A stretch of DNA of 36,034 nt from Bacillota bacterium (GTDB lineage: Bacteria > Bacillota > Bacilli > Alicyclobacillales > SLC66). Position numbers and translations under genes: made by a program. Location: contig JAJZEE010000032.1 of the NCBI GenBank assembly GCA_021805735.1, positions 1 to 36,034 of the forward strand, given 5' to 3'. Below the pieces are notes generated by a model that did not search any database, was not told the DNA's origin, and was given only the letters and a program-made list of their open reading frames with translations. Shown here piece by piece: positions 1 through 27,765 of the stretch (positions within the stretch are counted from its first letter, which is position 1; each line of letters begins with the position of its first letter).

Positions 1-173
1 GGCATCACCTCAAGCTCGATCACCTCCGCCTGCCTCTCCTGCGCCACTTCCCGAAGGATGGCCTTCAGGCGTTCATCCACACCGCTTACGAGTACGCCGC
101 GACGATATTTGGGACACCAGACCACATGATACTTGTAAGAGTACACAATATTTCGATTGGATTTGTATTCCAT
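1..173 (-). CDS. tnpA: IS200/IS605-family transposase TnpA, N-terminal part (runs off window)
   Basis: Reading leftward from the ATG at 171-173, 57 codons are open and continue past the window edge. The protein starts MEYKSNRNIVYSYKYHVVWC and continues PKYRRGVL, the conserved opening of Y1 (HUH) single-strand transposases of IS200/IS605. These enzymes cut and join one DNA strand with a tyrosine and recognise hairpins at the element ends. The HUH motif and catalytic tyrosine would lie outside the window, so activity cannot be judged. A probable left-end hairpin sits about 70 bp upstream of the start, as expected. Family assignment is firm; whether a tnpB follows is unknown. Confidence 0.9.
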   Translation of the reverse strand, partial: MEYKSNRNIVYSYKYHVVWCPKYRRGVLVSGVDERLKAILREVAQERQAEVIELEVM

Positions 174-11370: not shown

Positions 11371-11440
11371 GCAGTCTATCCCGGAAAATCGCCGCAGGCG
11401 CATTTTCGACCCGGTTGTTGGTGCTGCGTAGCAGCATGAA
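11371..11440 (+). repeat. Short relative of the structured repeat
   Basis: A ~70-bp unit beginning AGTCTATCCCGGAAAATCG and ending GGTGCTGCGTAGCAGCATGA, directly before the full repeat copy. It shares both end sequences with the full copies (compare GGTGCTGCGCAGC in the second copy) but lacks the central stem. With the next feature and the terminator at 11691, it accounts for much of the gene-free stretch 11253-11757; nothing else was recognised there. Confidence 0.6.
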
Positions 11441-11655
11441 AGTCTATCCCGAAAAATAGATCGTCCGTGCCGGTCGGAGTCATATATTGCGCCCCTGCTC
11501 AGACAGCGCTGTCGCTAAACTCGCAACGGGCGCAATATATGACTCCTCCCCGAGCGGGCCTTGTATTTGCGAAAAACCTTGCCGCGCCTTTTCATTCCCT
11601 GATGGTGGCGCGAAGCGGTGAGATTTTGCTTCGCAAAACTCAGGCATGAAAGTCC
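11441..11655 (+). repeat. Structured interspersed repeat, copy A
   Basis: About 215 bp, opening AGTCTATCCCGAAAAATAG and closing CGCAAAACTCAGGCATGAAA then GTCC. The core is a perfect 19-bp stem, GGAGTCATATATTGCGCCC (11476-11494) with its complement at 11528-11546, around a 33-nt loop holding the palindrome GACAGCGCTGTC. A second small hairpin, TTTTGCTTCGCAAAA, lies near the far end. The whole block recurs inverted at 27552-27765. Apparent reading frames here are open only because of the repeat sequence and have no ribosome site. It may be a MITE-like or REP-like element; the family is not recognised. Confidence 0.8.
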
Positions 11656-11690
11656 ACCACGGAGCTTAACGGTACTTAGTATGGTTCGAT

Positions 11691-27535: not shown

Positions 27536-27551
27536 CACCTTGATTACGTAA

Positions 27552-27765
27552 TAGACTTTCCTGTCTGAGTTTTGCGAAGCAAAATCTCAGCGCTGCGCAG
27601 CACCATCGGAGCAATGAAAACTCGCCGCGAGTTTTTCACTGGTGCGAAGCCCGCTCCGGTCGGAGTCATATATTGCGCCCGTCGCGAGTTTAGCACAGCG
27701 GTGTCTGAGCAGGGGCGCAATATATGACTCCGACCGGCAGGAACGACCGATTTTCCGGGATAGAC
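27552..27765 (-). repeat. Structured interspersed repeat, copy B (inverted relative to copy A)
   Basis: Read on the minus strand it follows copy A almost base by base: GTCTATCCCGGAAAATCG at the start, the same 19-bp stem (27662-27680 with 27713-27731) and a 32-nt loop differing at a few places, then the TTTTGCTTCGCAAAA hairpin and CAGGAAAGTCTATTACG at the end. The first and last bases repeat AGTCTAT in the same orientation, which could be unit boundaries or a target duplication. It fills most of the gap between the SleB-like gene's terminator and cheA; frames open across it are not coding. Confidence 0.8.

Follow-up and report, generated by a model that had tools for sequence, protein, structure and literature searches.

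In haloarchaea, single-strand elements of the PATE type have been well described. By definition, PATEs have near-terminal palindromes, but no terminal inverted repeats (TIRs), no target duplication and no transposase (PMC3119063); in the IS200/IS605 scheme, a tetranucleotide flanks the left end of the element and another one closes its right end (PMC6006769). Here, we describe a repeat family of an uncultured Bacillota lineage, starting from two copies, A and B, contained in a window of 36,034 nucleotides (the whole stretch of DNA that was analysed). The family is a high-copy one: close genomes provide empty sites resolved to the base, the target is clear, there is a strand bias, and the arrays evolve. 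Two questions become directly testable: which enzyme and which strand are involved in the movement, and why a loop is kept between genera while the stem enclosing it is rewritten. No description of the family was found in a literature search which covered few subscription papers and is, as such, weak evidence of novelty.

Units, size classes and arrays

Copies A and B share 85% identity over 213 bp (E=1e-61), in line with a preliminary description of this DNA, which had recognized a repeat of about 215 bp aligning almost throughout. On the plus strand, A is an array. It is preceded by a CTAT at 11376..11379, assigned as the host target by analogy with the empty sites mapped for other copies, and opens with a short unit at 11380..11447, the 70-bp short form which had already been seen joined head to tail before copy A. 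This unit contains a left hairpin (CCGG-AAAATCGCC...GGCG-ATTTT-CCGG), a right hairpin (TGCTGC-GTA-GCAGCA) and the right end CATGAAAGTCTAT, and is followed by a long unit at 11448..11657, delimited by sequence and alignment, whose right end has decayed to AGTCCAC. Copy B is one long unit on the minus strand, at 27551..27759, running from the left end CCCGGAAAATCG (27759) to the right end GAAAGTCTAT (27551), with its CTAT target on the left, at 27760..27763 of the same strand. The AGTCTAT motif previously attributed to both ends holds only approximately, A ending with AGTCCAC and B beginning with GGTCTAT: the key tetranucleotide is CTAT.

All genomes used are draft MAGs; G000 is the window's own genome, G001 and G002 belong to the same genus. 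Copy B, used as a query, matched 85 stretches of G000, where, allowing up to 3 mismatches, the left-end pattern GTCTATCCCGGAAAATCG was likewise found 85 times, as against 0 for a reversed control pattern, and the short form gave 52 matches. A single duplication, to which the preliminary description would have fallen back had further copies been missing, is thus ruled out. Comparable numbers were found in G001 and G002. Among GTDB genomes, in a scan that may omit records from the window's own genome or close to it, the exact left-end pattern occurs in two Bacillota MAGs only, DX2.bin20 and JA1.bin52, which may coincide with G002 and G001.

Measured from left CTAT to right CTAT, units fall into classes of 72-74, 154-160, 176-190 and 209-215 bp, all featuring one left end, CTAT directly followed by CCCGGAAAATCG, and one right end, CATGAAAGTCTAT. 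Short units consist of a left palindrome, CCGG-AAAATCGCC-gca-GGCG-ATTTT-CCGG, and of a right hairpin, TGCTGC-nnn-GCAGCA. In longer units, a long hairpin, which short units do not have, replaces the tip of the left palindrome, and the longest ones feature an extra right hairpin, TGAGATTTTGCTTCGCAAAACTCA; a subterminal hairpin is present at both ends. The elements contain no genes and are too short to encode a transposase. Head-to-tail joining at GTCTAT involves 55 of 130 units. At one locus of G000 (L099, about 1440-1505, contig C54), repeated left-end starts (GTCTATCCCGGAAGGTGTATCCCGGAAGGTGTATCCCGG) form an array of truncated left ends.

Insertion sites, strand bias and the mobilising enzyme

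For 22 loci, the two flanks were joined without the element and used to query G001 and G002. One or both of these genomes gave base-exact empty sites for copy B (L001), L010, L105, L115, L124, L128, L131 and L148, and a less clean one for L094; conversely, L240 is an insertion in G001 for which both G000 and locus L241 have the empty site. The empty counterpart of copy B in G001 reads ...GCCTAT and, directly across the insertion point, CACGTAATC. Array A is also absent from G001, where the flank breaks off at the junction and the boundary is not base-exact. Overall, about 10 insertion sites have a precise empty counterpart in a related genome, where only one target tetranucleotide is present, in most cases CTAT. 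The comparison of empty sites in relatives, suggested in the preliminary description, was informative for copy B itself. It is almost certain that the family is mobile DNA. One insertion, L124 (G000:C64:8493-8563), lies at a CTAT inside a cluster of TTATCCACA-like, DnaA-box-like sequences, a site empty in both G001 and G002.

The left end CCCGGAAAATCG directly adjoins the host tetranucleotide, insertion taking place precisely 3' of it. In L131, TTAT is present both in the empty site and on the left side of the filled one, with CTAT at the right end, indicating that the left tetranucleotide is contributed by the host and the right one by the element. The left tetranucleotide is other than CTAT in 37 of the 130 units: among these, the right one equals the left in 2, differs from it in 35, and is CTAT in 27. 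L115 has CTAA on both sides. Since left and right tetranucleotides vary largely independently, ordinary target-site duplication is excluded. Of 75 single or last units, 42 are followed by a right flank starting with CC, which makes CTAT^CC the preferred site.

A classical DDE MITE, endowed with terminal inverted repeats and producing a target duplication, would also be small, multicopy and devoid of genes, and a MITE was among the possibilities initially listed. The left end CCCGGAAAATCG and the reversed right end ATAGACTTTCATG, however, have no inverted repeat in common, CCCGGAAAATCG and CATGAAAGTCTAT not being inverted repeats of each other, and the two tetranucleotides differ independently. 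In its strict sense, this reading is refuted for most copies and is extremely improbable for the family.

As each unit closes with its own CTAT, every copy offers a fresh target, which results in head-to-tail stacking. One feature of the arrays is not predicted by this plain model: of 10 tandem pairs in which unusual bases follow the left CTAT, 5 have the identical bases after the next CTAT, and at L354/L131 and L388 the host flank repeats the unusual bases following CTAT. As a guess, this could arise if the new left end annealed to the host complement and mismatches were then repaired towards the host. The variant bases common to array units could also be taken to favor a spread independent of any transposase, by template switching or recombination between CTATCC-type sites and hairpins, and the rewriting of stems with pairing maintained, together with the nested truncated hairpins of L291 (see below), does resemble hairpin template switching. 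Boundaries are, however, precise and reproducible at unlinked loci, flanking homology does not exceed 4-6 bp and empty sites are clean, so that such a spread is a quite improbable origin for the family.

The anatomy of the units fits both the PATE definition and the IS200/IS605 scheme, and for this reason we favor a Y1 HUH enzyme, provided in trans, as the mobilising agent. It is probable that A and B are non-autonomous, gene-less elements, inserted 3' of CTAT by such an enzyme, acting in trans on single-stranded DNA. A single-strand mechanism is likely in itself; the class of the enzyme and the formation of a single-stranded circle are suggested by analogy. In this scheme, an IS200/IS605-like tyrosine HUH enzyme, supplied by another element, would recognise the folded hairpins on single-stranded DNA and cut at both CTAT sites; the cut ends would be joined into a single-stranded circle, which would then be inserted 3' of a CTAT during replication.

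No Y1 transposase with the family ends, and no flanking LE/RE motif pair, was found around any of the examined IS200/IS605 copies; similarly, none of the Y1 copies examined in these draft assemblies has ends related to the family. Because the genomes are draft MAGs, an autonomous copy could have been lost in assembly gaps. IS200/IS605 copies were considered as parents and set aside: the left ends that could be read use TTGAC or TTAC-like sites, and the other copies, not resolved to both ends, showed no CTAT ends nearby. On the 5' side of the left hairpin, which begins almost at the boundary, no guide tetranucleotide could be recognised. At 1-180, the window itself contains part of an IS200-like tnpA truncated where the contig ends (PF01797 at 3-146, minus strand); it is among several copies located at contig edges.

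The preliminary description had also proposed a REP-like unit, with a Y1 transposase responsible for its movement. This is the closest of its readings, as far as subterminal hairpins, insertion 3' of a tetranucleotide, the lack of target duplication, head-to-tail copies and empty sites are concerned, although the family is not a canonical REP. REP or REPIN-type elements, mobilised by a domesticated RAYT (TnpAREP), share with the family short hairpins, many copies and a single-strand logic (PMC6006769). The foot, however, is CTAT, with no GT[A/G]G (GTAG or GTGG) at the hairpins, no examined Y1 gene has the family ends, and no match to the RAYT model NF047646 exceeds the curated 80-bit cut-off in 8 genomes, the best one, at 38 bits, coming from an IS200-like TnpA. 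A 298-aa RAYT candidate (G000:C150) was rejected, being the antisense reading of a helicase-like gene. Mobilisation by a RAYT is accordingly regarded as unlikely.

Orientation was analysed over about 1.1 Mb of G000, in stretches, by comparing 61 well-supported elements or arrays with the regional GC skew, with which gene direction correlates at 0.88. In Bacillota, the G-rich strand is taken as leading. In 42 cases, the strand reading CTAT-left end-right end is opposed to the G-rich strand, and in 16 it coincides with it (p=0.0009); CTATCC motifs are distributed equally over the two strands (161:163). A strand bias is the outcome expected of replication-coupled single-strand transposition. IS608 and ISDra2 have their transposed strand in the lagging-strand template (PMC5371812). 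The sign of the bias found here is opposite to this rule, provided that transposition concerns the strand having CTAT on its 5' side. Either the enzyme is a different one, or the complement is the active strand, or the bias is increased by selection against one of the orientations with respect to genes.

The complement would be the active strand if the family were a rolling-circle derivative of the IS91/Helitron-like type, with target ATAG at the 3' end of that strand and arrays arising from failed termination. Head-to-tail arrays would be explained, the complementary strand would sit in the lagging-strand template, in agreement with the orientation bias, and Y2 transposases are present in G001, G002 and G031. 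IS91-like ends (TTGGACTAAACCGC...GACCGC.GTT.AGTCCAA), however, do not resemble those of the family, and no Y2 match was obtained in G000 and G010: we consider a rolling-circle origin rather improbable, and mobilisation in trans by a Y1 enzyme preferable. The IS91-like elements themselves, at L396, L397 and L398 (G001, G002, G031), feature a recombinase-like gene along with Y2_Tnp, and TTGGACTAAACCGC ends.

The long hairpin and its carriers

In copy A, sequence and folding place the arms of the long hairpin at 11476..11494 (left) and 11528..11546 (right) of the plus strand; the loop between them (11495..11527), delimited by hairpin alignment and pairing test, is the part conserved family-wide. 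In copy B, on the minus strand, left arm, loop and right arm lie at 27713..27731, 27681..27712 and 27662..27680, respectively, the arms being placed by sequence and fold and the loop by sequence and hairpin alignment. The 19-bp arms are the same in A and B, and both copies fold far better than dinucleotide shuffles (z ~ -6).

From these two copies, the stem had been described as identical and the loop as variable. This is true for A versus B only: when 46 distinct hairpins of G000-G002, G005 and G010 are aligned, the loop, CTGCTCAGACA-(small hairpin)-AACTCGCGACG, is the strongly conserved part, and the stem changes with compensation. Sequence is thus constant exactly where it is unpaired, the opposite of the impression given by two copies alone. 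The two helices are paired in 92.2% of cells, versus 81.3% in shuffles; helix pairs changed on both sides are 16, versus 8.6 expected, and double-change cells 131, versus 40 expected, values reached by 0 of 500 shuffles. In slid controls, at most 50% of cells are paired. RNAalifold, independently, proposes the same stem, with compensated changes in 15 of 17 pairs. The covariation check envisaged in the preliminary description has thus given a positive answer.

Strong folding and stem covariation would suit a structured RNA (sRNA, riboswitch or terminator) dispersed by duplication, another of the early proposals. This proposal received no direct support: no Rfam family matches at gathering score, and relaxed thresholds return only sub-threshold matches, mostly to animal or plant miRNA, none of them credible. 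Moreover, precise insertions and empty sites denote mobility of DNA, and the hairpin is missing from short units, so that a dispersed RNA is very improbable. Stem covariation is real, yet equally expected of a DNA hairpin. Part of it may result from hairpin template switching at replication, and not from selection, which would leave loop conservation unexplained; the loop is presumably bound by some factor. In locus L291 (about 1390-1500, G000:C162), two truncated half-hairpins precede in a row a full one, which suggests template switching in the loop.

A covariance model of the hairpin found 44 matches in G010 and 15 in G005, and none in the other tested family members; over 250 genomes drawn from the class Bacilli, it recovered, apart from G000, a single borderline match. 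A sister element acts as the carrier in G010: its left end is CTACCCGGAAAATAGG, its right end GCCATGGCGGTCTAC, and it features head-to-tail joining and an unrelated stem, CCCGTATCCCTTTGCTC. In G005, the carrier is a different repeat of about 230 bp (GCATTTTGCGCTGT...), with stem GGCGGTCACGCATACTGG, and at L309 the loop is inverted relative to its surroundings. Five loci of G005 (L320, L318, L314, L309 and L331) show a dispersed repeat of about 230 bp (GCATTTTGCGCTGTCCTCATTTTTTCAGAAACGAGACC...) carrying the loop in both orientations. At three G010 loci (L334, L332 and L328), a minisatellite-like tandem array of a unit of about 20 bp (GGGTCTGTGCCAGCCGCT), belonging to the left part of the sister element, lies upstream of the hairpin.

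Tentatively, the long hairpin could be regarded as a separate functional or selfish module, whose loop of about 33 nt (CTGCTCAGACA-hairpin-AACTCGCGACG) would be recognised by some factor and borne by a stem of free sequence, provided that pairing is kept. Unrelated short repeats would carry this module in at least three genera (G000-G002; G010; G005), and the carrier would be moved by a single-strand transposition system with a strand polarity, relative to replication, the reverse of that of IS608. We hold this reading to be doubtful.

Comparison with known systems

REP and REPIN sequences associated with RAYT are, like the units described here, small, palindromic and multicopy (PMC3116915, PMC8266576, PMC6006769); in contrast to them, the family has no GTAG or GTGG foot, is accompanied by no RAYT above cut-off, and its unit has two distinct ends. 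With IS200/IS605 elements, and IS608 in particular, it shares insertion 3' of a tetranucleotide, a similar closing tetranucleotide, subterminal hairpins and a replication strand bias (PMC6006769, PMC5371812). Unlike them, it carries no tnpA, targets CTAT, shows a bias reversed with respect to the lagging-strand-template rule, and has no recognised guide sequence.

The closest resemblance is to the PATEs of Haloquadratum walsbyi, which have no TIRs, near-terminal palindromes and no target duplications, are too short for a transposase, and occur in many copies, with empty sites between strains and a targeting sequence of 4-5 bp (PMC3119063). Here, the host belongs to the Bacillota, and no IS605-type transposon sharing these ends, which could be the parent, was found; the family differs from PATEs, as presented in the passages cited (PMC3119063), in that units stack head to tail and that a long, covarying hairpin has a conserved loop. 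The position of the long hairpin in the left palindrome recalls the SMR-A of Haloquadratum, small inverted-repeat units located inside the near-terminal palindromes of PATEs (PMC3119063). With respect to SMR-A, it is here the loop, and not the arms, that is conserved between genera, and the mobility seen is that of the carrier of the long hairpin. The family is PATE-like, with an unusual conserved-loop hairpin.
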